Assembly: GCA_903919035.1 (NCBI GenBank)
Contig: CAIXGY010000127.1
Location: 1 to 35,037 of the forward strand
Origin: an uncultured Planctomycetaceae bacterium
GTDB lineage: Bacteria > Planctomycetota > Planctomycetia > Pirellulales > UBA1268
Length of the DNA stretch: 35,037 nucleotides
Reading direction: 5' to 3'
Below the pieces are notes generated by a model. It saw only the letters and a list, made by a program, of their open reading frames with translations, was not told where the DNA came from and searched no databases. Below are positions 6,478-35,037 of this stretch, piece by piece. Made by a program: the position numbers and the translations under genes. Numbering within the stretch: position 1 is the first letter of the stretch; the number at the start of each line of letters is the position of its first letter.

Positions 6478-6551
6478 GGCGTCACTCCCGGGAAGAGGTC
6501 GGGGAATTCTAGCCTTGCCGACCGCGGGAGGCCCTGTCGTAGGATGTGGAC

Positions 6552-7031
6552 ATGCAACCACGTGTCCGGCGGATCGTGACGATCGTGGGCGGGGTGGCCG
6601 CGACAGTCGCGGTGTGGGTCACGCCTGCCCCTGGGCAGAGTCCCGCGGCCGCGGAACCCGACGCCGTGCGCACGACGCGGGAGCGGTATGCGGGCACCTG
6701 GCGGGTCGTGGCTTTGGAGTCCGGCGGGACCCGGGTCGCCGATGGTCGCGAGATCGTGGTCACGAACAAGACCGACGGCTCGTGGACGATCACCGTCGGC
6801 GACAAGGTCATCAGCCGAGGCACGAGTCGGATCAACCCCGCAGCCAGCCCGCCGGAGATCGACATCGAGGTCGGCGAAGGCACCGGAAAGGGCACGACGC
6901 TGCTGGGCATCTATGAATTGGATGAGACGTCGCGGCGGCTGTGTTTTCGCGGAGCCGGGGGCGCCCGGCCGCGGGAGTTCGCAACCGCCCCGGACTGCGG
7001 ATCGCTTCTCGTGACGTTCGAGCGGCAGTGA
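6552..7031 (+). CDS. TIGR03067-type exported protein
   Basis: A 159-residue secreted protein: residues 1-34 are a signal peptide (hydrophobic TIVGGVAATVAVWV), followed by a small beta-rich domain starting RYAGTWRVVALESGG, the typical opening of the planctomycete TIGR03067 lipocalin-like domain, and ending in LLVTFERQ. Such proteins occur in many copies in planctomycetes and have no established function. ATG 6546 is an equally possible start two codons upstream. It is convergent with the methyltransferase gene, three bases apart. Confidence 0.75.
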   Translation: MQPRVRRIVTIVGGVAATVAVWVTPAPGQSPAAAEPDAVRTTRERYAGTWRVVALESGGTRVADGREIVVTNKTDGSWTITVGDKVISRGTSRINPAASPPEIDIEVGEGTGKGTTLLGIYELDETSRRLCFRGAGGARPREFATAPDCGSLLVTFERQ

Positions 7032-7034
7032 CGC

Positions 7035-7934: not shown

Positions 7935-8006
7935 CCGTGAACTCCGACGGGAGTAGGATTGTGCCGGCGCCGTGGAGTCGCCGGCAAATCCGCCGCGGGT
8001 TCGACC

Positions 8007-8417
8007 ATGTACACGATCCACGAACACACCGCCGATCTCGGCATTCACGTCACGGCTTCCAGCCTCGCGGCCCTCCTCGCCGACGCCGCCCACGGACTCA
8101 CGGCCGTGATCGCGGGCGACGCCGGGCAGATCCGCTCGCTGACGGCCGAAACCTTCGACGTGTCGGGCTCCGATCCCGCCTGGCTGCTCCGCGACTGGGC
8201 CGCCGAGGTGCTCGCCGCCTTCGATCTGCGGCGGATGCTGTTCCGCGAGTTTGACGTGAAGGTTGACGACACCGGGCTTCGGGCCATCGCCCGAGGTGAA
8301 CGCTACGATCCCGCGCGGCACGTGCTTGCCCACGAGGTCAAGGCGATCACGCAGCACGAACTACTCGTCCGCCCGATCGAGGCTGGCTGGGAGGCCTTCT
8401 TCATCGTCGACATCTGA
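8007..8417 (+). CDS. Archease, activator of RtcB RNA ligase
   Basis: A 136-residue protein with the archease signature YTIHEHTADLGIHV at its start, the central SDPAWLLRDWAAEVL helix and the conserved end AFFIVDI, whose final Asp helps bind metal. Archease speeds guanylylation of RtcB and allows multiple turnovers. The RtcB gene begins 31 bases downstream, so the pair forms an RNA ligation operon. The ATG at 8007 matches the family's N-terminus; a longer frame from 7959 would add an unrelated stretch. Confidence 0.93.
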   Translation: MYTIHEHTADLGIHVTASSLAALLADAAHGLTAVIAGDAGQIRSLTAETFDVSGSDPAWLLRDWAAEVLAAFDLRRMLFREFDVKVDDTGLRAIARGERYDPARHVLAHEVKAITQHELLVRPIEAGWEAFFIVDI

Positions 8418-8448
8418 TCCAGGCCCCCGCCGACCCCGGAGACGACCG

Positions 8449-9942: not shown

Positions 9943-10633
9943 TGGGGCTCAGCGGCGCGGCCGCCGCGGCCCGGCGCCACTTCGTGGCCGGCAGCCCGTA
10001 GTCACGCAGCAACTCCACGACCCGTGCGTCCTCGACCTGCTCGAAGTTGCGGTAGAACTGCCCGATGGCCCAGAAGGTCTCGGGCTCCTCCAGGCACACG
10101 AGCCGGTCGCAGAGCGGCCGGATCGCGTCGAGCCGGTCGGGTGCGGCCACGGGCACGGCCACCACGATCTCCGTGGCGCCGGCAGTCCGCACCCAATGCA
10201 GGGCCGCGATCATCGTCGCGCCGGTGGCAATGCCGTCGTCGGTGAGGATCACCGTGCGGCCCGCGATCGCCGCCTGCGGCCGCACCGCGCGGAACATCGT
10301 CTTTCGACGGGCGATCTCCGCGAGTTGTCGCTGGCGTTCGGCCTCGACATAGGCATCGCCCGCGTCGGTCATCGCGCTCGCGAAGTGATTGAGATAGACC
10401 TCGCCATTCTCGCTGACCGCACCCAGGGCGAGTTCCGGCTGGTGGGGCGAGCGGAGCTTCCGCGACAGCACCACGTCGAGTTCCGCGCCGAGGCCCCGGG
10501 CGAGCACGGCGCCGATCTCCACGCCACCGCGGGGGATCGCCAGCACCAGGGGCTTCTCCAGCGACTCGCCACGCAGTCGCTCCACGAGCATCCAGCCCGC
10601 CTCGGCGCGGTCGGCGAAGATCCGGTGATGCAT
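9932..10633 (-). CDS. Phosphoribosyltransferase-family protein
   Basis: A 233-residue type I phosphoribosyltransferase fold. The PRPP-binding loop VILTDDGIATGATM is at 128-141, the pyrophosphate-loop region VLAIPRGGVEIG at 30-41, and SRKLRSPHQPELALGAV at 57-73. The specific base acceptor is unknown; relatives occur fused to or beside dienelactone-hydrolase-like proteins, as here. It is the last gene of a three-gene minus-strand operon, 10 bases after the hydrolase, with aggag before its ATG. It overlaps the end of rtcB by 11 bases. Confidence 0.88.
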   Translation of the reverse strand: MHHRIFADRAEAGWMLVERLRGESLEKPLVLAIPRGGVEIGAVLARGLGAELDVVLSRKLRSPHQPELALGAVSENGEVYLNHFASAMTDAGDAYVEAERQRQLAEIARRKTMFRAVRPQAAIAGRTVILTDDGIATGATMIAALHWVRTAGATEIVVAVPVAAPDRLDAIRPLCDRLVCLEEPETFWAIGQFYRNFEQVEDARVVELLRDYGLPATKWRRAAAAAPLSPISP

Positions 10634-10643
10634 GGCGATGCTC

Positions 10644-11309
10644 CTACTCGTGAAGGTGCGCGCCGAACCACTCGGCGGCCAGACGGGCGGCCTCCGCGAG
10701 CGTGCCCGGCTCCTCGAAGAGATGCGTGGCGCCCGGCACCACGGCCAGCCGCTTCTCGCCCCCCAGTTCCGCGAACGCCCGCTCGTTGAGCGCCAGAACG
10801 TCGCCGTCGAGTTCGCCGACGATGAGCAGCGTGGGCGCCTGGACGACGCGGAGCCGCCGGCCGGCGAGGTCGGGTCGGCCCCCGCGAGACACGACGGCGG
10901 TGAGCCGCGGCTCGCGGGCGGCGGCGACGAGCGCCGCGGCGGCGCCGGTGCTCGCGCCGAACGCGCCCAGCGGCAGGTGGCGGGTCTGCTCCAGCCCCGT
11001 CACGAAGCGGACCGCAGCCAGGAGCCGGTCGGCGAGCAGGCCGATGTCGAAGATGTTGATCCGATCCGTCGCCTCCTCCTCGGTGAGAAGGTCGAAGAGG
11101 AGCGTGCCGATCCAGGCCTCATGGAGCACGTTCGCCACGAAGTCGTTCCGTGGGCTGCGCCGGCTCGAGCCGCTGCCGTGCGCGAAGAGCACCAGACCGG
11201 TCGGGGGTGTGGGCAGACGGAGCCTGCCAGGCAGGGCGACGGCCGACCCCGACAGGCCCGTCGCGGGAATCGCGACGTCGAACGACTCGACGGTTTCGAG
11301 CAGCGTCAT
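10644..11309 (-). CDS. Alpha/beta hydrolase, dienelactone hydrolase-like
   Basis: A 221-residue soluble hydrolase. The oxyanion strand LVLFAHGSGSSRRSPRN is at 39-55, the nucleophile elbow GASTG gives Ser120, an acidic residue lies in VGELDGD (168-170) and the catalytic His196 in GATHLFEE. The family hydrolyses ester or lactone bonds, but the substrate cannot be told. The start codon overlaps the stop codon of the upstream hibernation factor gene (ATGA, 11306-11309), so translation is coupled. In other bacteria this hydrolase is often fused to the phosphoribosyltransferase that follows here as a separate gene. Confidence 0.87.
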   Translation of the reverse strand: MTLLETVESFDVAIPATGLSGSAVALPGRLRLPTPPTGLVLFAHGSGSSRRSPRNDFVANVLHEAWIGTLLFDLLTEEEATDRINIFDIGLLADRLLAAVRFVTGLEQTRHLPLGAFGASTGAAAALVAAAREPRLTAVVSRGGRPDLAGRRLRVVQAPTLLIVGELDGDVLALNERAFAELGGEKRLAVVPGATHLFEEPGTLAEAARLAAEWFGAHLHE

Positions 11310-11905
11310 GGAATCTCCTCGTGGGGGGCGGCATGGCGGTGCAGCGCGTGGTCGTGAGGATGGACGAGGTGCACGGCCGAGGCCTGCGGCCCCTCGTCCC
11401 CCTCCTCCTCCGTGAAGAACACCGAGCTGCCGACGTCGGCCGCGTGGAACTCGGGATCGGAGATCGCGTGGCGGTGGAAATAGACGTCGCGGCCGTCGGG
11501 TGTCCGGATGAAGCCGTAGCCCTGCAGGGGAAAGAGCTGCGAGATCCGCCCTTGGGCCCGGGACGCGTGGATCTTCTCGGTGCCGCGCATCCGGCGGACG
11601 TGATCCTCGAGGCGACGGCGGGCCGCATCGAAGGCGTCGCGGAGGGCCACGAACACGTCCTCGTGGGCATGGTCGAGGTGGTGGTCGCGGTTGACGACGA
11701 TTTCCCCGCCTGGCACGACGAGGTCGACGCGGATCGAGTACAGCCGTCCCTCGCGATGATGGCGATGCGGCTGCGCGACGACGACGTGGCAGCCGGTGAT
11801 CCGGTCGGTGAACCGCTCGAGGTGGGCGATGTGGTCGAGCGCCGCGTCGCGGACGGCCTCGTCGACGGGCAGGTCGTCGAACGACACCTGGGGCTGGGTC
11901 TGCAT
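11306..11905 (-). CDS. Ribosome hibernation factor fused to a cold-shock domain
   Basis: A 199-residue two-domain protein. Residues 1-108 match the HPF/RaiA fold that blocks the 30S decoding centre in resting cells (SIRVDLVVPGGEIVVNRD, then EDVFVALRDAFDAARRRLED). Residues 118-183 form an OB-fold cold-shock domain with both RNA-binding motifs, GYGFIRT (129-135) and DVYFHRHA (140-147). The usual long-HPF C-terminal dimerisation domain is absent. The tail is His-rich. Its ATG at 11905 has a gggag site; the hydrolase gene overlaps its stop. A 12-bp hairpin lies 58 bases upstream. The role is probably ribosome protection under stress; the RNA-binding part is inferred from motifs. Confidence 0.88.
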   Translation of the reverse strand: MQTQPQVSFDDLPVDEAVRDAALDHIAHLERFTDRITGCHVVVAQPHRHHREGRLYSIRVDLVVPGGEIVVNRDHHLDHAHEDVFVALRDAFDAARRRLEDHVRRMRGTEKIHASRAQGRISQLFPLQGYGFIRTPDGRDVYFHRHAISDPEFHAADVGSSVFFTEEEGDEGPQASAVHLVHPHDHALHRHAAPHEEIP

Positions 11906-11962
11906 GAAGGGCTGCTCCCGATCATCGAGGCGCCGCATCCTGCCCGCGTGCCGCAAGCGTAG

Positions 11963-11992
11963 GCATCCGGCCGCCGCGCCGCGGCCGGATGC
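11963..11992. repeat. Strong hairpin upstream of the hibernation factor operon
   Basis: A 12-bp perfect stem, gcatccggccgc (11963-11974) with gcggccggatgc (11981-11992), closes a 6-base loop. It sits between two divergent genes, nearer the minus-strand one, so it may lie in that operon's 5' leader or its promoter zone. The rest of 11906-12134 shows no other clear element. Confidence 0.55.
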
Positions 11993-12134
11993 GGGAGTGG
12001 CCGGGTGTTTCGCGGGGCCACGCAAGCCGGACAGTTTGCGAAGTGCGGGCGACAGCGGCGGCCTGGGGTGCGCCCGGCGGCCTCGGCGGGATTTGTCGGT
12101 TTGGAATGCTGGAGGAGCGGCCGGACAGGTGACG

Positions 12135-13670
12135 ATGGCACGGGTGCGCACGTGGACGCGACCGCGGGCGCCGTTCCGGGCGGTGCGAGCCCCCATGCCA
12201 CAGACAGCGTCTTTCCCAGCCCTGTGCCGCGCCGCGGCGCCGGCCATCGTCGCGCTCGCGATGTCGACGGTCGGCGCTGCCGCCGATACCTGGCCCGATC
12301 CCGGTGGACTTCTGCGCACCGCCGATCCCGGTCCGGCACTCCCGCCGCAGACAGCCCACGCCCCGGCCGTCGCAGCCCTGACCCACGGCCCGAGCCCCAC
12401 GACGCTCGCCGAGTTCGTCGCCCTCGCGGAGCGCAGTCATCCGAAACTGGTCGCCGCGCGGTCCGCGGTCGAGGCCGCGCGGGGCAAGGCAGTGCAGGCC
12501 CGTCTCTATCCGAATCCCATGCTGGCCGGTGGGTCGCCCCAGGCTGCCGGCACCTACAGTCAGTGGAACGGCTTCGCGTCGCAGGACGTGGTCACCGCCG
12601 GCAAATTGCGGCTCGCGCAGCAGGCGGCGCTCCGGGAGGTGCAGAAGGCTGAATACGACCTCGTCCGGGCGCGGTTCGACGTGCTGCGGGACGTCCGCCA
12701 GGGCTACTACGCGCTCCTCGTCTCCCAGCGACGCGTCGAGATCTACACGCAACTACTCGACATCGCCAAGCGGTCCTACGAGATCGGGAGCCAGTTGGCC
12801 GAGGCCGGCGAGGGCACGAAGGCCGACGTGCTCTTCTGGAGCATCGAACGCGACCGCGCCGACGTCCGCCTGCTCAACGCCGCAGTCTTCATCGAGACCG
12901 GCCGCCGGCAACTGGCCGCGGCGATCGGCCTGCCGCGGGCCGATGTCGGCATGCTCGAGGCCGATCTCCTGCAGAGGCTGCCGAACTTCGATCTCAAGCA
13001 GTTGCAGGAGGCCGCGGTGCGCCGCAACGCGCTGCCGCGGGCCGCGGAGGCGGACGTCGCCCGCGCCCAGTGGGCCCTCGAGCGGGCGGTCGTGGAGCCG
13101 ATTCCCAACGTCAATCTGCTGGGCGGCTATCAGCGGCAGGTCGACTACCCGCCCCAGGATCAGGGGCTCGTGCAGGTCATGATCGAGGTGCCCCTCTTCG
13201 ATCGCAACCAGGGCAACATCCGCTCGGCCCGCGCCGACATCGCGTCGTCGCGCGCGGCACTGCGGACGACCGAACTCGATCTCGCCACGCGGGCCGCCGA
13301 GGCCGTCACCACCTACCGCACGTCCCAGCGGCTCGTGGAATGGTACGAGCAGTACATCCTGCCCAAGGCACGGGAGACCGTGCGGCTGACGCAACTGCTC
13401 TACGCGCAGGGCGAGGTCACGTTTCTCAGCCTGCTCCAGGCGCAGCGGATCCTCACGGAAACGGAGCTGGCCTATGTGGAAGCCCAGGCGGATCGTTGGA
13501 CCGGCGCGGTGACGATCGCGGACCTCCTGCAGCTGGAGGTCTTCCCGCCGCCCGCCGACGCGCCCGCCGCGGTCGAGGCCCAGCCGGGCATGCCGCCTGC
13601 GGCCGGTGTCGTGCCGCTCGCCATGCCCGAGGCCGTCCCTCCGCCGGCCGAACCGCTTTCGGGGCCCTGA
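12135..13670 (+). CDS. TolC-family outer membrane efflux protein
   Basis: A 511-residue outer membrane channel component with two OEP repeats. A signal peptide (MPQTASFPALCRAAAPAIVA..., ending near GAAADTWP) is best seen from the ATG at 12195, which is an alternative start giving 491 residues. The first repeat begins LAEFVALAERSHPKL and contains RARLYPNPML-like ARLYPNPML; the second begins NLLGGYQRQVDY. Long coiled-coil helices (for example RDVRQGYYALLVSQRRVEIY) form the periplasmic barrel. It resembles CzcC-type metal efflux proteins. No inner membrane pump or adaptor gene is adjacent, so the partner is elsewhere. The C-terminus is Pro/Ala-rich. Confidence 0.88.
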   Translation: MARVRTWTRPRAPFRAVRAPMPQTASFPALCRAAAPAIVALAMSTVGAAADTWPDPGGLLRTADPGPALPPQTAHAPAVAALTHGPSPTTLAEFVALAERSHPKLVAARSAVEAARGKAVQARLYPNPMLAGGSPQAAGTYSQWNGFASQDVVTAGKLRLAQQAALREVQKAEYDLVRARFDVLRDVRQGYYALLVSQRRVEIYTQLLDIAKRSYEIGSQLAEAGEGTKADVLFWSIERDRADVRLLNAAVFIETGRRQLAAAIGLPRADVGMLEADLLQRLPNFDLKQLQEAAVRRNALPRAAEADVARAQWALERAVVEPIPNVNLLGGYQRQVDYPPQDQGLVQVMIEVPLFDRNQGNIRSARADIASSRAALRTTELDLATRAAEAVTTYRTSQRLVEWYEQYILPKARETVRLTQLLYAQGEVTFLSLLQAQRILTETELAYVEAQADRWTGAVTIADLLQLEVFPPPADAPAAVEAQPGMPPAAGVVPLAMPEAVPPPAEPLSGP

Positions 13671-13675
13671 TTCGT

Positions 13676-13965
13676 GATGCGGCTCACGAGTGGTCGCCTC
13701 GCGCATCGACTCGCCTGACCGGCGTCGGGGATGCCTGTGCCGTCTCGCTCGGGCGTTCGCGACGGGCGGCGTGCCCGTCGCTCACTCGATGCTGCCCTCG
13801 CTTCGCAATCCGTGCTGCGCTTGGCCGGCAACGCCGGCTCGACGGCACGGGCATCCCCGACGCCTTGCCCGACACGATCGAGGCAGACCTGAGCCGGTCA
13901 GGCGCAGCGAGCGGCTGCGAACGAGATGGCTCGGCGACGCATGGGGATCACGCGTGAGCCGTATC
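13676..13965. repeat. Nested imperfect inverted repeat between convergent genes
   Basis: The space between the TolC-like gene and the lipoprotein gene is a nested palindrome. Outer arms 13676-13688 and 13953-13965 match in 12 of 13 bases, middle arms 13712-13722 and 13894-13904 in 11 of 11, and inner arms 13721-13744 and 13841-13864 in 23 of 24. Two local hairpins lie inside (13761-13779 and 13824-13838). It may serve as a bidirectional terminator or be a mobile, non-autonomous repeat. Confidence 0.7.
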
Positions 13966-15004
13966 AGTCGGCCGCGGCGATCTCGAGCGGGAGCGTGGTC
14001 CGCGCGGTCGAGCCGGAGCGAGTGTCGATGACCTCCACCTCGACGCGACACTGGCCACCGGGAATCGACTCGGGCACCTGCACGACGTAACGTGCGAAGT
14101 AGTCGTGGCGACGGCTGGGGCTGGTCTCGGCCAGGGGATCGAAACTCCAGGTGTGAAGCGTGACGCCGGCGGCGTCGACGAGCCGTAGCACCGCGTCGAT
14201 GCAGGTCGTGTGGCCCGCGGGCGTGGATCCGGCGGAGAGATTGTCGAGTTCGACGTAGACGATCACTTCCTGGCCGGGATGGAACCGGTCGGCCGCGAAG
14301 CGGTCGATGTCGCCCCAGGCCCTGACAGCGGACGCGAAGCAGGCGGTGCGCACGGCCAGCGGCGGCTCCGCGACCACCTCGGGAACGACCGGATCCGCGG
14401 GCGGGACCGGCGCGGGATCGGCGGTCGGCGCGGGAGCCGGTGACTCGGCCTGTGCCGTCGGCGGCACCTCGTCCACGGCCGCGCTCGCCTCGGGTTCGAT
14501 GGCGTCGGCAGCCGGTGCCGGCTCTGTGTCTCGACTCGTTGCGGACTGGGAGGCGTCAGCGACAGATTCGGTCGCCACCGCCTCCGGCGTCGTGGCCGCG
14601 ACACCCGACGTGGCCAGCGATCCGGCGAATTCGTCGACGACCACCGGCCAATCCTCGGGCTGGGTTCGTTGCAGCGTCGCCACGAGGGCGGCTTCGACGG
14701 CCGGGTCGAGGTCCCCGAGGTGTGACAGGCGAGCCATCGCTTCCTCGAGAGCCGCCTCCCGTCGTTCGCGATCCGCTTCCGCCGGCGCCGGGGTGTCCGC
14801 CGCGGGTTCCCCGGGTGCGTCCGTGACCGCGTCAGCCGCAGTCTCGGCGTCGTCCGGAGCGGAGGCCGCGTGATCCGCGGCGGTCCAGAGCCCGTCGCGC
14901 AGATATGCGGTCGTCAGCGCCGAGGTGCATCCGGACTGCAGCGCGACCACGATGCACGCGGTTGCGAGCGCGAACGGCTTGCCAAGGGTCACGGTGGGGC
15001 TCAT
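13964..15004 (-). CDS. Putative exported lipoprotein, Ala/Pro-rich, planctomycete type
   Basis: A 346-residue protein with a signal sequence (hydrophobic [14 protein letters not shown]) whose Cys26 could be lipidated, though Gln at -3 makes the lipobox atypical. Residues 30-210 are low-complexity, rich in Ala, Pro, Asp and Glu, with one helical stretch about 82-125 ([20 protein letters not shown]). Residues 215-346 form a compact beta-rich domain ([20 protein letters not shown], then [13 protein letters not shown]) of a kind seen in planctomycete envelope proteins. The function is unknown. The ATG at 15004 is preferred; the frame is open further upstream but only through non-coding sequence. 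Confidence 0.7.
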
Positions 15005-23345: not shown

Positions 23346-23882
23346 TCAGGCGGGCGCCGCCCAGCCGACCCAGCCGAGGCCGATGGCAGCCGTCGGAAAG
23401 AAGTCGTCGACCCAGCCGGCAGCGGCCGCCCGCGCGAGGTCGGCGCACGGTGGCGGCACGCTCTTCACGAGCAGGAGCCCCGCGGCATGGGTCGTCGCCA
23501 CCACCGCGGCGATCGAGTCGCTCGTGACGTGCCAGCCGACGGGCAGCCTGCCGACACGATCGTCATGATCCAACCAGCGCGGGGCGTCGAGCACCCCGTT
23601 CGCCGCGGTGCACCGCCCGGGATCGCCGACGAGGGGCACGTCGAGCGTGGCGGCGACCATCCGGGCCGTATGCCCCATGCATTCGATCGCGAGCCGATGC
23701 ATGAGCGCGGGGTTCTGCGGCACCGCGCGATCGGCAACTCGCAACCCATCGACGAGCGGCCCGCCCCCCACGACGAGCAGCCGGGGGGAGGGGAGGTCGG
23801 CGAGCAGCGCCGCGACGTCACGGTCCCACGCGGGACGAGCGAGCAGGCTGCCGCCCAGCTTGCAGACCAGGGGCGCGACCAT
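23346..23882 (-). CDS. MfnE-like amino acid kinase family protein
   Basis: A 178-residue short member of the amino acid kinase fold, with the N-terminal phosphate loop KLGGSLL and the second glycine loop LLVVGGGPLVDGLR; HVTSDSIAAVVA supplies the expected nucleotide-site acid. The length and neighbours match MfnE, which phosphorylates the aminomethylfuran precursor of methanofuran; the substrate is inferred from context. Two starts are possible: ATG 23882, which gives the usual MVAPLVCKLGG beginning, or ATG 23921, which overlaps the upstream stop in ATGA fashion and adds 13 residues. It is the last gene of the C1 operon. Confidence 0.75.
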   Translation of the reverse strand: MVAPLVCKLGGSLLARPAWDRDVAALLADLPSPRLLVVGGGPLVDGLRVADRAVPQNPALMHRLAIECMGHTARMVAATLDVPLVGDPGRCTAANGVLDAPRWLDHDDRVGRLPVGWHVTSDSIAAVVATTHAAGLLLVKSVPPPCADLARAAAAGWVDDFFPTAAIGLGWVGWAAPA

Positions 23883-23917
23883 GGTGCCGCCTGTCAGCGT
23901 TCCGCGCCGCCACGCGA

Positions 23918-24967
23918 TCATCGGAGACATCCCCGGGCGATGAGCGCCACCGCGTGGGCCGGTGCCGCCCGCGAGACGGCGGGGCCCACGACGTCGGCGA
24001 GCGACACGGTCGGGAGCGCACCCCACGCCACCGCCGTCGCGCGGCGGGCCAGCGGCTCGCCGTGGCCCGAGAACACGATGCCGTCGGGACGCCAGCCGAG
24101 GCGGTTCGCGACGCGGAAGAGCGCCGCGGCGATCCGCCGGGCCTGCACCATCGCCACGCGCTCGGCCGCGGCGCGGGCGTCGGTCGGCGACAGGTCGGTC
24201 GGTTCAACGAGCAGCGCGTGCGCGAGTCGGACGCGGGCCGCCGCGCGGGTGGCCGGTCCGCCGTCGGCGGTGTCGCGGTTCGCAGGATCCTCGGGCAGTC
24301 CGCCGAGCAGGAGCCAGGCATCGCGGGAGTCGGCGAATCGCTCGGCCGCGACGGGCCTCACGAGGCCGCCGTGGGGCAGGCCGCGCACGATCGCCGGCAG
24401 TGGCGTCCGCTCGATCCCCGTGTAGACCAGCTCTCCTGACAGCATCCGCCCCGCGTCGTCGCGGGCGAGCGGCGCCGGCACCCCGTCGACGAGGGCGACG
24501 ATGTCGGTCGTGGTGGAGCCGACGTCGACGAGCAGCGACCGCGGCGCCGGGGCATGGGCCGCTGCCAGCCGGGCCAGGGCGTGCCAGTTCGAGGCGGCCG
24601 CGAGGAGCGGGGCGGCGAGCGCGTCGGCGGCGGGCACGATCCGGCCATCGACGAGATAGATGCCGACGTCGATACCGCCGTCGCGGGCGGCCGCCACGAC
24701 TGATTCGACGATGTGGGCGACGCCGGCCGCCCGCGCCGGGAAGCAGTCCGCGATCTCGCCCGTCATCGTGGCCACGCAGCGGCGGGCGGAGGTGGACCGG
24801 AACAGGTCGGCGACGACGTCTGGCAGCCGCCGCCACTCGCGCCACATGGCGAAGGGTTCGTGGTGCGTCCACCCACGGCCGTCCGCGGCCTTCAGGTTGG
24901 CACCGCCGACGTCCAGGGCGATCAGGTCGGCGATTGGCATGGCGGCTGGCGGAGGAGCGACGGTCAT
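23918..24967 (-). CDS. H4MPT-linked C1 pathway protein (ASKHA fold, hydantoinase-like)
   Basis: A 349-residue protein with two ATP-binding phosphate loops of the ASKHA superfamily, LIALDVGGANLKAAD (15-29) and LLVDVGSTTTDIVALVDG in the middle. It resembles the TIGR03123 family found beside methanofuran and tetrahydromethanopterin genes in methanogens, methylotrophs and planctomycetes; the exact reaction is not settled. It begins one base after the ATP-grasp gene ends and runs into the kinase gene, so the three are surely cotranscribed. ATG 24967 is used; Met10 is an alternative. Confidence 0.82.
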   Translation of the reverse strand: MTVAPPPAAMPIADLIALDVGGANLKAADGRGWTHHEPFAMWREWRRLPDVVADLFRSTSARRCVATMTGEIADCFPARAAGVAHIVESVVAAARDGGIDVGIYLVDGRIVPAADALAAPLLAAASNWHALARLAAAHAPAPRSLLVDVGSTTTDIVALVDGVPAPLARDDAGRMLSGELVYTGIERTPLPAIVRGLPHGGLVRPVAAERFADSRDAWLLLGGLPEDPANRDTADGGPATRAAARVRLAHALLVEPTDLSPTDARAAAERVAMVQARRIAAALFRVANRLGWRPDGIVFSGHGEPLARRATAVAWGALPTVSLADVVGPAVSRAAPAHAVALIARGCLR

Positions 24968-24968
24968 G

Positions 24969-25961
24969 TCAGGCGTCGGGCACCCGGAAGCGTGCGGCCG
25001 AGGCCGCCGCCTGCGGGATGCGCGTTGGCAGCCGCGGCATGCCTGCCGCCGCGTCGATCATCGTCGCCACGAGGCTCGACGAAAAGAGGCGGGCCAGCCC
25101 GACGAACGACGTGGTGATCCGCGGGTTGGCCTCGAGCACCCGGTCGTCGCGGCCGTCCGCCCGGTCCCCCAGAATCATGTCGACCCCCAGCCAGCCCGCG
25201 TCGATCGCGAGGGCGGCCGCAACGCGTCGCGCGAGATCGGCGGCCCGCGCGGCCAGCGCGGCGTCGGCCACCAGGTCGCCGCCGAGGTAGCGGGGGCTGC
25301 GGCCGGCGGTGAACACCTGGCGGAGCGGAGGCAGCACGGTCGTCGCGCTGCCCCCGCAGATGCAGGAGACGCCGACGGGCGTCCCGTCGACATGCGCCTC
25401 GATCCGGGTCGGGCTTGCGGCGGGCGTCACGGGATGCGCGGTCAGCACTTCCAGCCCGTCGCCGCCGCAGCTGCCGCGGAGCTTCCGCACCGCCGGCATG
25501 TGGAACCCGGCGGGCACGCTCTGACCGCCGGCGAGTGCGCGGCCGGCCGGCACGGGCACGCCCCGGGCCGCGAGCGCGTCGATCGTGACCTGCTTGTCCG
25601 CCGCGATCGCGATCGCGGCGGACGTCGGTGCGGGGACCCGGCACCCGGCGGTCCGCAACCTGCCGACGAGCGAGGCGAGGATGCCATCGGTCTCCGGCGC
25701 GACGACCACGAGCCAGTCGGCGTCGCAGCCCGCGGCCACGACCGCGGGCACGCCGCCGTCCGGGGCCACCGTCACCACGCGGGCTCCGTCGGGCAGATCA
25801 ATCGCCCGGCCCGCTTCGACGAGCACGCGCACGTCGAGCGCGGGATCCTTGGCGGCGTCGGCCGCGAGCGCCTCGAGCATCATCCGGCCCTCGCGGGCGA
25901 TATCGGCGTCGCCGCCTGCGAGGCCGCCCGACATGCACCACTCGTAGATCGCGATTCGCAT
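24969..25961 (-). CDS. ATP-grasp ligase, MfnD-like (methanofuran pathway)
   Basis: A 330-residue ATP-grasp protein. The N-terminal pre-ATP domain opens MRIAIYEWCMSGGLAGG, typical of the ligase in methanofuran clusters. The ATP-grasp core includes DKQVTIDALAARGVPVP, EAHVDGTPVGVSCICGG and the metal-binding end GWLGVDMILGD with VLEANPRITTS. In methanogens MfnD joins tyramine to glutamate; the same reaction or polyglutamylation is inferred here. ATG 25961 matches the family start; an in-frame ATG at 25991 overlaps the previous gene. It lies 26 bases after the HEAT-repeat gene. Confidence 0.8.
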   Translation of the reverse strand: MRIAIYEWCMSGGLAGGDADIAREGRMMLEALAADAAKDPALDVRVLVEAGRAIDLPDGARVVTVAPDGGVPAVVAAGCDADWLVVVAPETDGILASLVGRLRTAGCRVPAPTSAAIAIAADKQVTIDALAARGVPVPAGRALAGGQSVPAGFHMPAVRKLRGSCGGDGLEVLTAHPVTPAASPTRIEAHVDGTPVGVSCICGGSATTVLPPLRQVFTAGRSPRYLGGDLVADAALAARAADLARRVAAALAIDAGWLGVDMILGDRADGRDDRVLEANPRITTSFVGLARLFSSSLVATMIDAAAGMPRLPTRIPQAAASAARFRVPDA

Positions 25962-25987
25962 CCCGGCAGACTGTCTCGCTTGGCGCC

Positions 25988-26935
25988 TCAAAAGAGCGAC
26001 TTCAGCGAGCTGCCCAGCGACCAGCGGGGCTTCGTGGTCGACTCCGGCGCGGCGGCCCAGGCCCGCCAGCGGTCGACGTCGGATCCGAAGTCGCGGCCGG
26101 TGGCCCGGGCGAGCGCGGCCGTGGCCCGCGTCTGGATCGCGGGATCAGGGTCGTCGAGCAGCGAGACGAGATGGGGAACGGCCGCGGGATCGCCGAGCGT
26201 GCCGAGTACCCGCACGGCCCGCAGTCGGACGCCGAGATCGGCGTCCTCGCTGGCCCGGCGTGCGAGCCGACTCACGCTCTCGGGGCCGCGACGATCGCCG
26301 CAGACCTGGCAGGCGGTGAGCCTGACCCGCGGATCGGGATCATCGAGCGCCCCGGCACAGATGGCGTCGGCGGCGGCTGTGTCGAACGCCGCGGCCAACC
26401 CCAGCACGACGCAGCGGGCCCGTGGATCGGATTCCGTCAGCATCGCGGACACGAGACGGCGGGTGAACTCCTCCCGGTGCCGCGGATCCCCCAGCCGGGC
26501 CGCGTCGGCCTCCGTCGTGAGCAGCGCCAGACGTCTCGACGCGTCCGCCGGCAGGTTCGCCGAGTCGGCAGCGGCCTCGGGTTCGTCGTCGGGCTCCCGG
26601 TCGACGCCGCGGTCCTGGCCCGTGCCACCGCCCTTTCCGGCGTCGAGCCCGGGAGGCGTGCGCGGTGATTCCTCGTCGGCGCCGGGCACGATGACCCGCT
26701 GCGGCGGGGCGGGAGTGCCGGCCCCGCGGCTTGGGTCGGCGGGCTGACCGACCGTCGGCCACTTGCGCCACTGCGTCTGGTAATACCCGAATTGACCGGG
26801 ACGGACCGGGCAGTTCGGCCCGCACGTGCCGTCGCGGCAATCGTGTGCTTGGCCCTGGCACGGACTCGCGACGCAAGCCAGCACAGCGACGAGCAGCAGG
26901 GCGACGGTCGGCCGATGCAACGACGGGCGGTTCAT
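25988..26935 (-). CDS. Exported HEAT-repeat protein
   Basis: A 315-residue protein with a signal peptide (LHRPTVALLLVAVLACVASPCQGQ). The mature N-terminus has a short Cys-bearing stretch (DCRDGTCGPNCPVRPG) and the planctomycete motif GQFGYYQTQWRKWP. After a Pro/Gly-rich linker (about 70-120) come HEAT repeats (about 150-290), seen as VLGLAAAFDTAAADAICAGA, SRLARRASEDADLGVRLRAV and PHLVSLLDDPDPAIQTRATA. They suggest a binding scaffold in the periplasm. ggagg stands before the ATG at 26935. It heads the minus-strand C1 operon, though any functional link is only positional. Confidence 0.78.
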   Translation of the reverse strand: MNRPSLHRPTVALLLVAVLACVASPCQGQAHDCRDGTCGPNCPVRPGQFGYYQTQWRKWPTVGQPADPSRGAGTPAPPQRVIVPGADEESPRTPPGLDAGKGGGTGQDRGVDREPDDEPEAAADSANLPADASRRLALLTTEADAARLGDPRHREEFTRRLVSAMLTESDPRARCVVLGLAAAFDTAAADAICAGALDDPDPRVRLTACQVCGDRRGPESVSRLARRASEDADLGVRLRAVRVLGTLGDPAAVPHLVSLLDDPDPAIQTRATAALARATGRDFGSDVDRWRAWAAAPESTTKPRWSLGSSLKSLF

Positions 26936-27113
26936 GCCCGGTACCTCCGAAAGGGGGATCGCGGAGGACGGTAGCGAATCCTGGCCCCGCGCAGGAATGC
27001 CGATTTCCCCACAGCCGGACCCCGTCGGTCTGCCGGCGCGGGCGGGCGAGCCTGGGCAAGGCCCGCAGGCTCGGCAGGTCACGACGGTGAGCCGGGCCCC
27101 GGCGGCGCTCCGG

Positions 27114-28802
27114 TCAGGCCCGGTACGCGGTGCGGGCGACGTCGGGCTTCACGCCCTCGGGCGTCTCGTCGCTCGCGATGTCGAACCACTCCGGCTGAAA
27201 CTCGATTCGGGCCTGCGTCGTGGGGTTCGCCAGCGCGATGTTGCTCACCAAGGCGATCACGGCGTCGGCGATCGCCACCTCCGGCTTGCACCGGGGCTGA
27301 TGCTCCGGGGACGGATTGCGGATGCACCAGGCCCAGTGTTCCATCTCCTCCGTGTAGCCGCGGGACGGCGGGCCTGCCGACGCGCCCCCCTTGCCGCCGG
27401 CGGCATATCCGCCTCCGCCGCTCTCGGTGGTGTCCAGCGTGGGCGTGCCGTCCTTCGCCTTGGCGACCGTGACGCGGGTGTCTTTCGCCGAATCCTTGTA
27501 GAGCATCACGTCCTGCTCGCGTTCGAGCACGAGCGTGCCCTTGGTGCCCATCACCACCTCGCCATACTCGCCGAAGCCGTTGCCGTTGATCGACGAATAG
27601 GTGACGACGATCTTCTTGTTGGGATCGGCCACGCCGCCCTGCTCGTCGAAATATCCCGGGGCGGGATACTCGTACATGCAGTAGACGTGGTCGTCGATCT
27701 CGCGGTCGGCGGGGAACAGGCTCCGGTTGCCCACTGCGGTCACGGTGAGCGGCTTCACCTTCTTGCCCGGCCCGTGCATGGCAGACACGAAGATGCCCGC
27801 CGCGTCGAGTTGGTGGCTGCCAAGCTCGGCCATGAGTCCGCCGCCGGTGCGGTTCCAGAGTCGCCAGCGAATGAGTTCCTCCAACGGCGATCGTGGGGTG
27901 CCGTCGGGCAGCGAGATCCGGGTGTAACCGTGCTTCTCGGCGTCGATCATCTTGTCGGAGATCTGCGCCTCGAGTTGGGCGATCTTCTTGACGAGGCCGT
28001 CCACGTCGGCGGGCTTGGCGTCGGCCAGATCCTTCTGCCATCCCGCGAGTTGCTTGGCGAGTTTGTCGTCGTCGGGAAGGGGCGGCTTCCAGGAGTCCTT
28101 GCCCGGCAGGTTGCCCCGGTGCCACTGGGCGCGAAGCGAGTGGAGGTCGCCGATGAGCCGCGCGGTGCCGATCGTGTGGACCGCGTCGTCGTAGAGGACG
28201 CTGTAGTGCCGCTGGTGTCCCGTGGCGAGGATCTTGCCCGTCTCGCGGGCCACGCGCCCCATCTCCTTGCACTCGTGGACGCTGTGGGCCATGAGCTTCT
28301 CGGTGAGCACGTGCTTGCCGGCACGCATCGCCTTGATCGACGCCTCCGCGTGGAGGTGCAGCGGCAGGGCGATGATCACCGCCTCCACGTCGGGATCTGC
28401 GAGCAGGTCTTCGTACGCCGCAAAGACTCGCACCTTCTCCCGCGCCGCGTCCTCGGTGGACCACTTGTACTTCGCCATCAGCCCGGGCCGGGCGGTGTTG
28501 GCGCTGGCGCTGGAGACGTCGCCGTGGAAGGCGCGGAAGACGTTGTAGGGGCGGATGTCGGCGATCGCGACGACGTTGAGGTAGTCGGGATTGTGCGCCC
28601 CGATGAGCACGCTCCCCTCGTCCCCGGTTCCCAGCACGCCGACGCGGAGCGGGTCTCCGACGCTCCGGCCATAACCGAAATAGACCGCCCCGAGGCCGGC
28701 GCCCGCTGCGGTCGCTCCGGCCAGGAAGTCGCGCCGCGTGATCGCCACGGCGTCGGCGAAGTTCTCCTTGCCGATCTGCTTCTGGGATTCGGTCAGGTTC
28801 AT
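27114..28802 (-). CDS. Gfo/Idh/MocA oxidoreductase with Tat signal
   Basis: A 562-residue NAD(P)-dependent oxidoreductase exported by the Tat pathway: ITRRDFLAGATAAGAG at 21-36 is a twin-arginine signal. The Rossmann fold begins PLRVGVLGTGDEGSVL (51-66), and the catalytic EKLMAHS lies at 168-174, where Leu replaces the common Pro of EKP. Two insertions enlarge it beyond the usual 350-400 residues: a charged helical region about 245-295 and a Gly-rich loop (ESGGGGYAAGGKGGASAG). Such enzymes occur in large numbers in planctomycetes and may act on sugars. It lies 4 bases after the DoxX gene, so they form an operon. Confidence 0.9.
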   Translation of the reverse strand: MNLTESQKQIGKENFADAVAITRRDFLAGATAAGAGLGAVYFGYGRSVGDPLRVGVLGTGDEGSVLIGAHNPDYLNVVAIADIRPYNVFRAFHGDVSSASANTARPGLMAKYKWSTEDAAREKVRVFAAYEDLLADPDVEAVIIALPLHLHAEASIKAMRAGKHVLTEKLMAHSVHECKEMGRVARETGKILATGHQRHYSVLYDDAVHTIGTARLIGDLHSLRAQWHRGNLPGKDSWKPPLPDDDKLAKQLAGWQKDLADAKPADVDGLVKKIAQLEAQISDKMIDAEKHGYTRISLPDGTPRSPLEELIRWRLWNRTGGGLMAELGSHQLDAAGIFVSAMHGPGKKVKPLTVTAVGNRSLFPADREIDDHVYCMYEYPAPGYFDEQGGVADPNKKIVVTYSSINGNGFGEYGEVVMGTKGTLVLEREQDVMLYKDSAKDTRVTVAKAKDGTPTLDTTESGGGGYAAGGKGGASAGPPSRGYTEEMEHWAWCIRNPSPEHQPRCKPEVAIADAVIALVSNIALANPTTQARIEFQPEWFDIASDETPEGVKPDVARTAYRA

Positions 28803-28806
28803 GGTT

Positions 28807-29370
28807 TCACCTCGCGCACGTTTCGGCCGCGCCGGACAGTCGCCGGCACGTGGGACACCATCGCACCAGAAAATGATCGAGACCGCTCCAGCAGCCGACG
28901 GGCAGGGCCGCGAGCGCCAGCAGCGCGGCCATTTCCACCCACTGGTCGTAGGTGGCCTGGGCGCCGGCCACCCAGAATGGCTGGGACGCGATCACACTCG
29001 CCAGGAAGATCGCGCCTCCCATCGCGTTGAACTTCACGAACAGGCCCACCAGCAGGCAGGCCCCGATGGTCACGAGCGACCAACTCACGAAGCGGTCGGC
29101 CTGCCAGAGAGATGATGGTCCGGCGGCCGTCGCCGCCGCCCGACGAGCCTCGGCCGAGCCGAGATCGCGATCCCAGTCGGCCACGAGTTTGCGGCCGATG
29201 GCCTCGGCCTCGGCCATCCAGCCCGCAGCCTGGCCGGCGAGTTCGGCCCGCTTTCTCGTGATCCGCTCGCGCTCGAACGGAATCTCGTTCGCGCCCGGCC
29301 GCCGTTGGCCGGCGGCGAGCCGCTCCACCTGGCGGCGGTACTCGGCCAGGTCGTCACCGATCTCGGCCAG
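28807..29370 (-). CDS. DoxX-family membrane protein, 5' end missing at the junction
   Basis: About 185 C-terminal residues remain. Transmembrane helices are visible: FVSWSLVTIGACLLVGLFV, MGGAIFLASVIASQPFWVAG and MAALLALAALPVGC, followed by DHFLVRWCPTCRR near the end. Before them is a charged coiled-coil stretch (RERITRKRAELAGQAAGW). DoxX proteins are quinol-linked or redox-related membrane proteins; the substrate is unknown. Upstream of about 29,370 the open frame continues only as the antisense of another organism's solute-binding protein, so the true start is lost. It is coupled to the downstream Tat oxidoreductase gene. Confidence 0.75.
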   Translation of the reverse strand: MAEIGDDLAEYRRQVERLAAGQRRPGANEIPFERERITRKRAELAGQAAGWMAEAEAIGRKLVADWDRDLGSAEARRAAATAAGPSSLWQADRFVSWSLVTIGACLLVGLFVKFNAMGGAIFLASVIASQPFWVAGAQATYDQWVEMAALLALAALPVGCWSGLDHFLVRWCPTCRRLSGAAETCAR

Positions 29371-29384
29371 ATGATCGCAGATTC

Positions 29385-29390
<6 letters not shown>
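29350..29390. other. Junction between two unrelated genomes
   Basis: Planctomycete coding (minus-strand DoxX) stops being plausible here and the solute-binding protein frame on the plus strand begins in mid-protein. The exact base cannot be set because both frames are open across 29,350-29,390. GC content and codon choice change on the two sides. Confidence 0.75.
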
Positions 29391-29622
<232 letters not shown>

Positions 29623-29634
29623 GAAATCGGTCTC

Positions 29635-29664
29635 GTTCCAGCCATCTGATGAGATGGCTGGAAC
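29635..29664 (+). terminator. 13-bp hairpin after the solute-binding protein gene
   Basis: gttccagccatct (29635-29647) pairs perfectly with 29652-29664 around the loop gatg. No T run follows, so termination may be factor-dependent, or it may protect the 3' end of the upstream mRNA. Confidence 0.6.
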
Positions 29665-29691
29665 GTGCCACGCAGAAAATACAGACAGGTG

Positions 29692-29717
29692 GAGCCGGTG
29701 TGCCAACACACCGGCTC
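29692..29717 (+). repeat. 11-bp hairpin just before the MFS gene
   Basis: gagccggtgtg (29692-29702) pairs perfectly with 29707-29717 around ccaa, ending 12 bases before the ATG at 29730, and could overlap the ribosome binding site. It may be a terminator or a translation control element. Confidence 0.55.
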
Positions 29718-29729
29718 TCTGCTCCATCT

Positions 29730-30902
29730 ATGAACAACTATCGTGTCCTCACTCTAGTCAACATCCTCGCCATGGTGGCCATTGGCATCCACTCCCCACT
29801 GCTCACACTCTATCTGCAGGGTCTGGGTGCCGACTTTGCCCTGATCTCCGGAATTCTGACGAGCACTATCGTGGTCATGCTGGGCGCAAGCTATGCCCTG
29901 GGCTGGCTGGCCGATCGCATGGGCCGGCGTAAGCCGCTCTATCTGGCTGGGCTGGCGGGTGCCGCCATCAGCTACTGGTGGTTGAGCGCAGCCGGCGACG
30001 TTGCCCACGCCTGGCCGGCGCGCCTGCTCGATGGGCTGTCGATGGCCGCTGTCTCGACGCTCGGCCTGGCGCTCATGGGCGATACGTTGGATTCATCGCA
30101 GCGGCGAGGGCGCCAGATGGGACTCACGCGCGGGCTGGGGTCGGGGGCTTTTGCCGTCGGCGCGCTGGTCGGTGGCCGCCTGGCAGATACCTTTGGCCTG
30201 TCGTTTGTCTTTGTCGTGTGCGGTGCGTTTTTCCTGGCGGCCATGCTGGCTGCCCTCTTTGTGCAGGAAGTCCACTCCGCGCCCCTCCCCGTTGTGCCAG
30301 GCAGCCAATCGCACCGGCCTGGTGCCGGCCTGCCGCTGCTGTTTTTGGCCGGCGTGATGCTGTGGACTACGGCGCACGTCGCTTCTACCTCCATGTGGCC
30401 CAACTACATGGCAACCTTTGGATACAGCAAGACGGCCATCAGCAGCCTGTGGTCGCTGGCGGCCTTTATCGAATTGCCGGCTATGTACGTCACCGGCGCT
30501 CTGTCCGATGCCATGGGGCGGTCGATTATGCTGGCCGCAGGCGGTCTTGGCATTGGTGTTGTACAGATCGGCTATACGTTGCTGGCACAGAATCTGCCTT
30601 TGCTCTTGGGCGTGCAGGTGCTGCGCGGCTTCGGCTTCGGCAGCTACACGGCTTCTTCGATGACCTTTGCTGCCGAGTTTGGTGGACAGCAGCATCGCGG
30701 CAGCCGTAGTGGGCTCTTCAACGCTGCCGGGAGCACCGGCCAACTGCTGGGCAGTATGTTGGGCGGTACGCTGGTGCAGATGGCGGGTTTCCCCGCGCTC
30801 TTCGCTCTCTGTTCGACTATTGCCCTTGCCAGCGCATTCTGTTTCCTCTGGCTGGGGCGCAGGCGATCCACCCCCATCGCTGGCCATGCTTCAGTGCCTT
30901 GA
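29730..30902 (+). CDS. Major facilitator superfamily permease
   Basis: A 390-residue protein with about 12 transmembrane segments and the MFS motif ALGWLADRMGRRKPLYLAG between helices 2 and 3, with a second copy GALSDAMGRSIML in the second half. The helix 1 region MNNYRVLTLVNILAMVAIGI follows the start directly. It lies upstream of three dehydrogenase genes, so it probably takes up their substrate or exports a product. ATG 29730 is preferred over 29649, which would start within a hairpin. Confidence 0.88.
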   Translation: MNNYRVLTLVNILAMVAIGIHSPLLTLYLQGLGADFALISGILTSTIVVMLGASYALGWLADRMGRRKPLYLAGLAGAAISYWWLSAAGDVAHAWPARLLDGLSMAAVSTLGLALMGDTLDSSQRRGRQMGLTRGLGSGAFAVGALVGGRLADTFGLSFVFVVCGAFFLAAMLAALFVQEVHSAPLPVVPGSQSHRPGAGLPLLFLAGVMLWTTAHVASTSMWPNYMATFGYSKTAISSLWSLAAFIELPAMYVTGALSDAMGRSIMLAAGGLGIGVVQIGYTLLAQNLPLLLGVQVLRGFGFGSYTASSMTFAAEFGGQQHRGSRSGLFNAAGSTGQLLGSMLGGTLVQMAGFPALFALCSTIALASAFCFLWLGRRRSTPIAGHASVP

Positions 30903-30997
30903 ATGTCCTCTCATGCCAAGGCACAAAGGAGCGCCGATAAATTCTCGCTGCTCTTGTGCCCGTGTGAGATCCCAATTTGCCAAAGAAAGACTGAACG

Positions 30998-32008
30998 ATG
31001 CTACGAATTGGAGTCATGGGTACGGGGTCAATTGCCGCCGTCCATCTGGATGGGTGGCGGCAGATGCCCGGTATCGAACTTGTCGGCTATTATGATCTCT
31101 TGCCCGAAGCCGCCGAACGCGCCGCCCAGAAGTATGGCGGCCGCGTCTTCGGCTCCCTGGACGATTTTTTTGCCGCAGTGGACCTCGTCGATATCTGCAC
31201 GCCCGGCACGGCGCACAAGGAAAATGTGCTGGCCGCAGCTGCGGCGCGCAAGGCCATCATCTGCGAGAAGCCGCTCGCCCGCCACCTGCCTGACGCGCTG
31301 GAAATGGTGGAAACCTGCGAACGTGTGGGCGTGCCCCTCTTCCCGGCCCAGGTCGTGCGTTTCTTCCCCATGTACCGCAAGGTCAAGGAGTCGATCGACG
31401 CAGGGGCTATCGGAACGCCAGCCGTCTACCGCAGCGCACGCTGTGGCAGCTTCCCGCGGCCTGGCCGTGACTTTTCGGCGCCGTATTATGCCGACTTCAA
31501 CCAGAGCGGCGGCGTCGTCCTCGACGTGGCTGTCCACGATATCGACTTTGCCCGTTGGTGCTGCGGCGAGGTCGAGCGGGTCTTTACGCGCGGGTTGACT
31601 TTCGCCGGCAAGCCCTTTCAAGATCACGCTCTTCTCACGCTGCGCTTCACCTCCGGTGCCATCGGCCATATCGAAGTGAGCTGGTCACACCCACGCGGCA
31701 ATTTTCGCACCCGCGTAGAGGTAGCGGGGGATGCCGGCCTGGTAGAGTGGGATTCGCTGGACCGGCCACCCCTGCTCGCTGAGTTGTACGACGAGCAGAA
31801 CGGCTTCCAGCGTCTGGGCAGCAGCCCAACCAGTGCCACCGACGAGCCGTACTATGCTGAGCTCGCTCACTTCGTCGATGTGGTCGAAGGCCGTGCCACG
31901 CCGATCGTCACGGCACGTGACGGCCTGGAGGCGGTGCGCGTTGGCCTGGCTGCCATCGAGTCGATGCGCACAGGCCGGCCGATCACCATGCGAGATTTTG
32001 GAGGGTAA
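30998..32008 (+). CDS. Gfo/Idh/MocA family oxidoreductase, first of three
   Basis: A 336-residue NAD(P)-dependent dehydrogenase with the dinucleotide loop GVMGTGSIAAVH (5-16), catalytic CEKPLARH (89-96) and the second-domain motif VLDVAVHDIDFARW. It is probably a sugar or cyclitol dehydrogenase; the specific substrate is not known. It begins 95 bases after the permease. The second dehydrogenase gene follows after four bases, which indicates one transcript. The ATG at 30998 aligns with the standard beginning MLRIGVMGTG. Confidence 0.9.
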   Translation: MLRIGVMGTGSIAAVHLDGWRQMPGIELVGYYDLLPEAAERAAQKYGGRVFGSLDDFFAAVDLVDICTPGTAHKENVLAAAAARKAIICEKPLARHLPDALEMVETCERVGVPLFPAQVVRFFPMYRKVKESIDAGAIGTPAVYRSARCGSFPRPGRDFSAPYYADFNQSGGVVLDVAVHDIDFARWCCGEVERVFTRGLTFAGKPFQDHALLTLRFTSGAIGHIEVSWSHPRGNFRTRVEVAGDAGLVEWDSLDRPPLLAELYDEQNGFQRLGSSPTSATDEPYYAELAHFVDVVEGRATPIVTARDGLEAVRVGLAAIESMRTGRPITMRDFGG

Positions 32009-32012
32009 TGCC

Positions 32013-33017
32013 GTGGCTGAACACAATATTCGGATTGGGTTTCTGGGCATTGCCCACCTGCATTCTGTTTCCTACGCCGGTAACTTGCTTGCCATGCCGG
32101 GCGTGGAAGTAGTCGGTATGTATGAGGCAAACGAACAACTGGCGACAGAGTGGGCCGGTCGCTTTGACGTGCAGCGCCTGGCCAGCGCCGAGGAACTGCT
32201 GGCAGCCGGCCTCGATGGGGTCGTGATCTGCAGCGAAAACGCGCTGCACCGCCCCTATGTGGAGCGTGCAGCCGGCCGCGTCAAGGCCATCCTGTGCGAG
32301 AAGCCGATTGCCACGACCGTGGCCGATGCACAGGTTATGATCGACGCCTGCCGCACCGCAGATACAAGGCTCCAGATTGCATTCCCTGTGCGTTTTGCCC
32401 CGTCGGTGGTGGAACTGAAACGACAGCTCGATGCCGGCCTGTTGGGTGAAATCCTCACCGTCAATTGCACCAATCACGGCTCCATGCCGGGCGGCTGGTT
32501 TGTCAACCCTGATCTCGCCGGGGGCGGCGCAGTCCTCGACCATACGGTGCATGTCATCGACGTGCTGCGCTGGTTCTGGGGCGCCGAGGTGACCGAAGTC
32601 TACGCCGAAATCGGCGAGAGCCTCCTTCACCCCGGTCTCGGTATCGACGATGCCGGACTGCTCTCCTTCACGCTCAGCAACGGTGTCTACGGCACGTTGG
32701 ACACGAGCTGGTCCCGGCCGCCGAGCTACACGATCTGGGGCGACGTCAAGCTGGAGATTCTGGGCACGCACGGGGTCGTCTATGCCGACACGCTGCAGCA
32801 ATATGTGACCGTGGCCTCCAATGCCGCCGGCAAGACACGGTGGGCAAGCTACGGCAGTGACATGGATGGCGGCCTCATGGCCGATTTCGTGAAGATGATT
32901 CGTATGCGAGGTGAACCTTCTATTACCGGCGAGGACGGTCTGCGCGCCATGGCCGTCGCGCTGGCTGCGTATGAGTCGGCAAAAACGGGTCAGCCAGTCA
33001 AACTTTCGAATCTCTGA
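32013..33017 (+). CDS. Gfo/Idh/MocA family oxidoreductase, second of three, GTG start
   Basis: A 334-residue dehydrogenase-like protein. The nucleotide loop is altered: FLGIAHLHSVSY replaces the common GxGxxA pattern, a variant seen in a subgroup of the family, while CEKPIATT (95-102) and VLDHTVHVIDVLRW are intact. The only good start is GTG 32013 with ggaggg upstream, four bases after the previous stop. It is clearly cotranscribed with its neighbour. The changed loop leaves cofactor choice open; substrate unknown. Confidence 0.86.
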   Translation: MAEHNIRIGFLGIAHLHSVSYAGNLLAMPGVEVVGMYEANEQLATEWAGRFDVQRLASAEELLAAGLDGVVICSENALHRPYVERAAGRVKAILCEKPIATTVADAQVMIDACRTADTRLQIAFPVRFAPSVVELKRQLDAGLLGEILTVNCTNHGSMPGGWFVNPDLAGGGAVLDHTVHVIDVLRWFWGAEVTEVYAEIGESLLHPGLGIDDAGLLSFTLSNGVYGTLDTSWSRPPSYTIWGDVKLEILGTHGVVYADTLQQYVTVASNAAGKTRWASYGSDMDGGLMADFVKMIRMRGEPSITGEDGLRAMAVALAAYESAKTGQPVKLSNL

Positions 33018-33053
33018 CCGCCGATCGCCGCCGATCCCGTGGATCGCTGATCC

Positions 33054-33070
33054 CGGATCGCTGCGATCCG
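33054..33070. repeat. Small hairpin in front of the third dehydrogenase gene
   Basis: cggatcg (33054-33060) pairs with cgatccg (33064-33070). It is part of a run of gatcgc/gatccc-like motifs in 33018-33075, the only spacer of note in this operon. Confidence 0.4.
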
Positions 33071-33098
33071 CAACTGAAAATGTGCTACGAGGTGTCCT

Positions 33099-34433
<1,335 letters not shown>

Positions 34434-34456
34434 AGAAGGACGGAGCAGCCACCGGG

Positions 34457-34498
34457 ACGGCGACGACCGGCCACTGCGCCTGCCATCGCCGTTTTTTT
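34457..34498 (+). terminator. Intrinsic terminator after the dehydrogenase operon
   Basis: acggcga (34457-34463) pairs with tcgccgt (34486-34492) and is followed directly by seven T residues (34492-34498). The loop is long (22 bases), but the T run makes termination likely. Confidence 0.6.
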
Positions 34499-34539
34499 GA
34501 TGCGGCGCCATGGCTCGCCCGTGAAACTGTGAGGAAACT

Positions 34540-34932
34540 ATGCTGGTAGCAGGCATGATCAGCGGGACTTCGGCGGACGGTATTGACGTAGCACTGGCCG
34601 AGATTCACAGTGTGCCCGGCACCGCGCCGGGTGCAGTTGCCCTGCACCAGCGCGCATTCGTGACGGTACCGTGGCCAGCCGCCGACCGCGCCCTCATCTT
34701 CGACCTGTTTGCCAACCACGGCTCGCCACAGACGGTGTGCCGTGCCAATTTCGCGCTCGGCACGACCTTCGCGCGCGCAGTCGAGGAGGCCGCACACGCG
34801 GCCGGTGTTGCGCTGGACACTATCGAACTCATCGGCAGCCACGGCCAGACGATCTGGCACGACGCCGACGGTGACCGCATCACCAGTACCCTGCAGATCG
34901 GCGAACCGGCTGTGATTGCCGAGCGAACCGGC
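34540..34932 (+). CDS. anmK: Anhydro-N-acetylmuramic acid kinase, 5' part only
   Basis: About 131 N-terminal residues of AnmK, which opens and phosphorylates 1,6-anhydro-MurNAc during cell-wall recycling. The family start GMISGTSADGIDVALAEI is at 5-22, followed by IELIGSHGQTIWHDA and STLQIGEPAVIAERTG. The last motif is normally followed by ADFR and GGQGAPL; these are missing. From about 34,930 the frame continues as a different protein. A gagg site precedes the ATG. The gene is cut by the second junction. Confidence 0.85.
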
Positions 34933-34940
34933 GAGGCGAC
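34927..34940. other. Second junction: anmK joined in frame to a P-type ATPase
   Basis: The frame passes without interruption from the AnmK motif AVIAERTG to the ATPase motif TGEATLLAEISRLL. The shared bases accggcga could have served as overlap. Confidence 0.7.
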
Positions 34941-35037
34941 CCTGCTCGCCGAGATCTCCCGGTTGCTGGCGGCGGCGGAGTCCGGCCGTACTCGCTTCGT
35001 GGCGCTCGCCGACCGGGTGGCGCGCAGCTATGCGCCG
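34933..35037 (+). CDS. Internal fragment of a heavy-metal P-type ATPase
   Basis: The 35 residues reading EATLLAEISRLLAAAESG then FVALADRVARSYAP match the stretch after the actuator domain of P1B-type metal ATPases, where TG.TLLAEI..L and LADR.A..YAP are conserved. No start exists and the window ends inside the protein. Sequence style suggests a proteobacterial source, but the piece is too short to be sure. Confidence 0.6.

Follow-up and report, generated by a model that had tools for sequence, protein, structure and literature searches.

De Bruijn graph assemblers running with small k are known to join sequences at a short shared word (reviewed in PMC7299287), and chimeric nodes have been described in metagenome assembly (PMC8171044). 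In the chimeric contigs that result (PMC7299287, PMC8171044), more than one genome is joined at a short shared sequence, the true continuation remains as a contig of its own that begins at the branch, and the join carries no biological signature; the usual descriptions stress related species with homologous sequence. Horizontal gene transfer islands are marked by an abrupt change of GC content, k-mer composition, and closest relatives.

The locus studied here, contig C127, resembles the assembly chimeras in these respects, the short shared sequence being a probable one, and the islands in its abrupt changes. Unlike the usual chimeric contigs, it appears to join unrelated bacteria at a chance stretch of about 20 bp, the genes at its join lie on opposite strands, and it is apparently chimeric twice. 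Unlike transfer islands, its foreign arm lacks an integrase, a transposase, a tRNA target, a repeat, and a second host boundary, and both the bin itself and the congeners compared carry the broken host gene, which encodes a DoxX-like protein, in uninterrupted form. We therefore consider C127 to be almost certainly an inter-genome misassembly produced by k-mer bridging, with a second such error near position 34930, and not the product of gene transfer. A misassembly of this kind is ordinary, belonging to a well-known sort of artefact.

The window analysed is the entire contig C127 (35,037 bp) of a metagenome-assembled genome (MAG) whose bin comprises 338 contigs and 3.46 Mb, with 97.5% completeness and 1.3% contamination. 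Near position 29,379, reading frames on opposite strands both lack their 5' parts at one place, as the initial annotation had claimed. The minus-strand frame, running from 28807 to approximately 29379, encodes 193 C-terminal residues of a DoxX-like membrane protein, and the plus-strand frame ending at 29622 encodes the last ~87 aa of a solute-binding protein, the closest relative of which has 618 aa. The join had been placed within 29350–29390, and this bracket was correct: host sequence is verified up to base 29378, by its match to contig C18 of the same bin, and recognisable Chloroflexota homology starts at 29359, that is, within the verified host sequence.

Composition also changes at this point. 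GC content was 0.726 at 23744–29344 versus 0.631 at 29379–34925, in agreement with the shift previously proposed. The tetranucleotide comparison across the join that had been suggested as a check placed the right arm at a distance of 0.395 from the bin, exceeding the maximum of 0.374 observed among 39 same-bin chunks (5.6 kb each, from other contigs), and nearer to Caldilineaceae, at a distance of 0.270.

A search of the host's own genome with positions 28850–29850 returned the query itself, one internal hairpin, and the first 42 bases of C18. The last verified host bases of the window form a tip overlap (29345–29378, unstranded) of 34 bp, matched exactly by the start of C18; C18 diverges from the window at 29379. 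The minus-strand frame at positions 3–446 of C18 carries the missing 148 N-terminal residues of the DoxX-like protein, and joining it to the window frame yielded one open frame encoding a 327-aa protein. The length of the overlap, 34 bp, does not by itself correspond to a common odd k value. Other 18-bp tip matches among the bin contigs examined resembled dispersed repeats, with the C18/C127 pair as the exception.

Gene order in relatives was consistent with this continuation. The host gene nearest the join that is still intact encodes a 562-aa Gfo/Idh/MocA family oxidoreductase (27114–28802, minus strand; Pfam PF01408), and it is followed by the C-terminal part of the DoxX-like gene (28807–29378, minus strand), which relatives carry as a full-length single open frame. 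Orthologues of the oxidoreductase, with 73–86% identity, adjoin the DoxX-like gene in 17 of 17 related loci, where the order is Gfo/Idh oxidoreductase, DoxX-like gene, 2-hydroxyacid dehydrogenase, and protein kinase. Beyond the kinase, these loci carry an SDR gene, a TPR protein gene, and others, to the extent of each stretch compared; the genes from the dehydrogenase onward correspond to C18. The DoxX-like protein was uninterrupted in all 17 genomes, lying between the Gfo/Idh gene and the C18 genes. More broadly, 58 of 60 related genomes had matches to the joined protein, for the most part in a single open frame of full length, with 52–68% identity within the family. The exact overlap, the open frame, and synteny show that C18 is the true continuation of the left arm; it lies elsewhere in the same assembly and overlaps the join.

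"DoxX-like" serves as a working name only. The name given in the initial annotation holds to the extent that the joined protein shows weak similarity to the DoxX family (PF07681, E-value 6e-4), but the score of 20.8 bits falls below the curated Pfam cut-off of 23.6. This similarity is located in the half that is missing from the window, and the Pfam match appeared only with the joined protein.

The foreign arm (29379–34930, plus strand) showed a different affiliation in synteny, composition, and congener matches. All of its genes are on the plus strand: the last ~87 aa of a family-5 extracellular solute-binding protein (29359–29622), an MFS transporter (29730–30902; Pfam MFS_1), three Gfo/Idh/MocA oxidoreductases (30998–32008, 32013–33017, and 33099–34433), and the N-terminal ~130 aa of anhydro-N-acetylmuramic acid kinase (AnmK; 34540–34930), which is cut by the second join. 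The MAG Caldilineaceae bacterium BROCD010 (locus L027) contains all six genes in the same order, including an intact 618-aa SBP_bac_5 protein whose C-terminus is 73% identical to the window's binding-protein tail. Protein identity to BROCD010 was 47% for the MFS transporter, which is also syntenic in locus L032, 76, 70, and 79% for the three oxidoreductases in order, and 64% for AnmK; DNA identity was 67–84% where alignable and approximately 72% over most of the arm.

The 31 loci matched came from MAGs titled Caldilineaceae, Anaerolineae, Anaerolineales, or Chloroflexota/Chloroflexi, with one titled only "bacterium", and these record titles bear out the Chloroflexota-like label originally attached to the binding protein. 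In 21 congeners, the right arm was not found, the only matches being chance-like ones of 28–100 bp, and a bin search found no second copy elsewhere in the host bin. At the sequence level, the right arm is thereby shown to be Caldilineaceae-like and syntenic in that group, and the left arm is syntenic in host relatives. Just past the binding-protein stop codon lies a near-perfect hairpin (29634–29665, CGTTCCAGCCATCT-GATG-AGATGGCTGGAACG), which is terminator-like but has no evident T run.

Comparison of the join with the Caldilineaceae gene pointed to a stretch of about 20 bp common to the host sequence and the binding-protein homology (29359–29378, unstranded), which is the putative bridging k-mer. 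In the plus-strand frame, 16 of these 20 bases equal those of the nearest Caldilineaceae relative's gene (DLGQMI versus ELGQMV), whereas only 3 of the 14 bases immediately to the left of 29359 do so. For unrelated sequence, an identity of 16/20 has a probability of approximately 2e-6. Positions 29359–29378 are verified host sequence because C18 contains them, and since homology to the Chloroflexota gene begins 20 bp inside host sequence, a word of about this length was very probably common to both sources. Judging from these alignments, the host and the Caldilineaceae source very probably had this word in common by chance. The exact 21-mer ending at 29378 occurred only in C127 and C18 among the loci compared, which do not include the actual Caldilineaceae source.

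A second join, which the initial annotation did not mention, follows further right. The Caldilineaceae-like sequence extends to approximately 34930, and beyond this point the contig carries a fragment of alphaproteobacterial type. The frame at the contig end encodes AnmK residues 1 to ~130 and then continues into a heavy-metal P-type ATPase with no stop between them (34930–35037, plus strand, ~108 bp). The fragment matched Pfam E1-E2_ATPase with an E-value of 7.4e-5 and TIGR01511 with an E-value of 7e-4, both under the curated cut-offs. Its last 36 aa shared 75% identity with a translated sequence from the alphaproteobacterium Niveispirillum cyanobacteriorum, and its other matches were mainly to Sinorhizobium, Sphingobium, and Rhizobium plasmids, several of them annotated as P-type ATPase. 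Counted per 15 bases around 34930, identity to the AnmK relative fell from 11–13 to the background level, and that to the ATPase relative climbed to 11–12. Because the AnmK frame switches to an alphaproteobacterial-type ATPase, the contig combines sequence from three organisms.

These observations would be accounted for if the assembler, moving along the host genome, putatively that of a planctomycete, had met the ~20 bp at 29359–29378 that was also present in a Caldilineaceae solute-binding-protein gene of the same sample. It would have taken the wrong exit at this shared stretch, with the right exit left over as C18, and about 5.55 kb further on the same kind of error would have carried the path out of the AnmK gene and into a P-type ATPase gene of an alphaproteobacterium. 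Three parts of this account are inferred: precisely which k-mer was shared, what kind of assembler was used, and how the second join came about. The fragment of a third organism shows the error repeating, and two joins on one contig argue for misassembly.

A chimeric molecule or read, formed by ligation or template switching during library preparation and joining the genomes before sequencing, would likewise give an abrupt join without mobility genes, and none was seen here. Blunt ligation, however, does not predict ~20 bp common to both sources at the join, a single chimeric read would not account for an arm of 5.5 kb without extension by the assembler, and a systematic graph error better explains the presence of two joins on the contig; we regard a library origin as very improbable. 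A ligated chimeric read appears to fit less well than an assembler join at a shared k-mer, since the sources, as far as the sequences indicate, share ~20 bp at that point.

Real transfer would require a rare host subpopulation in which a Caldilineaceae cluster (binding-protein tail, MFS transporter, three Gfo/Idh genes, and AnmK) had entered the DoxX-like gene, with C18 derived from an uninterrupted subpopulation. The overlap of C18 with C127 at this site is what alternative alleles would show, and strain mixing is frequent in MAG bins. Nevertheless, the right arm is absent from all 21 congeners, its composition is unameliorated, and its far end runs, within AnmK, into a gene fragment from a third, alphaproteobacterial source. 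Host sequence was not found on both flanks of the arm, the far side being the alphaproteobacterial-type fragment at the contig end, and this failure to return to host sequence counts against transfer. The earlier statement that the break lacks a mobility gene or usable gene end also stood, in that no mobility gene, integration target, or boundary repeat was found among the arm's reading frames and Pfam matches. Transfer into such a subpopulation has, in our estimation, a negligible chance of being correct, even less than a library chimera. The preference for misassembly or chimerism over transfer expressed in the initial annotation is accordingly sustained by the continuation on C18, the host synteny at 17 loci, and the Caldilineaceae synteny of the right arm.

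The significance of the misassembly is for quality control only: despite the completeness and contamination values of the bin, this contig was built from three unrelated bacteria, and a naive reading of it would report inter-phylum gene transfer. Such a misassembly can be demonstrated without reads, from the orphaned continuation at another contig's tip together with gene order in relatives.

Other features were observed in the host arm, for which DNA comparison with congeners covered window positions 1–15000. The only tRNA in the window is a tRNA-Glu at 3044–3118, and beside it GC content dips to ~0.61–0.65 at 3000–6500, a candidate real genomic island. The stretch at ~3200–5550 had no DNA similarity to congeners among the matches listed. 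The region at 3000–6500 was considered as another potentially foreign stretch, but no additional join is claimed, as it contains congener matches at ~2973–3185, 5551–5740, and 5784–6415 and its composition is nearer to the bin than to Caldilineaceae. Positions 6239–6415 include ~170 bp that are 77–85% identical in most congeners, where they lie on contigs other than those carrying the neighbouring window genes; this segment had no Rfam or tRNA match and may be an unlisted structured RNA or a repeat.

A dispersed inverted-repeat element of ~150–190 bp has one copy at positions 13697–13886, with 24-bp terminal inverted repeats at 13721–13744 and 13841–13864. It was found at ~41 more places in the bin with 82–94% identity, many of them at contig tips, so the element probably breaks the assembly. 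The element folds far better than shuffled sequences (z −6.1), and its copy in the window had no Rfam match. Some congeners contain related copies.
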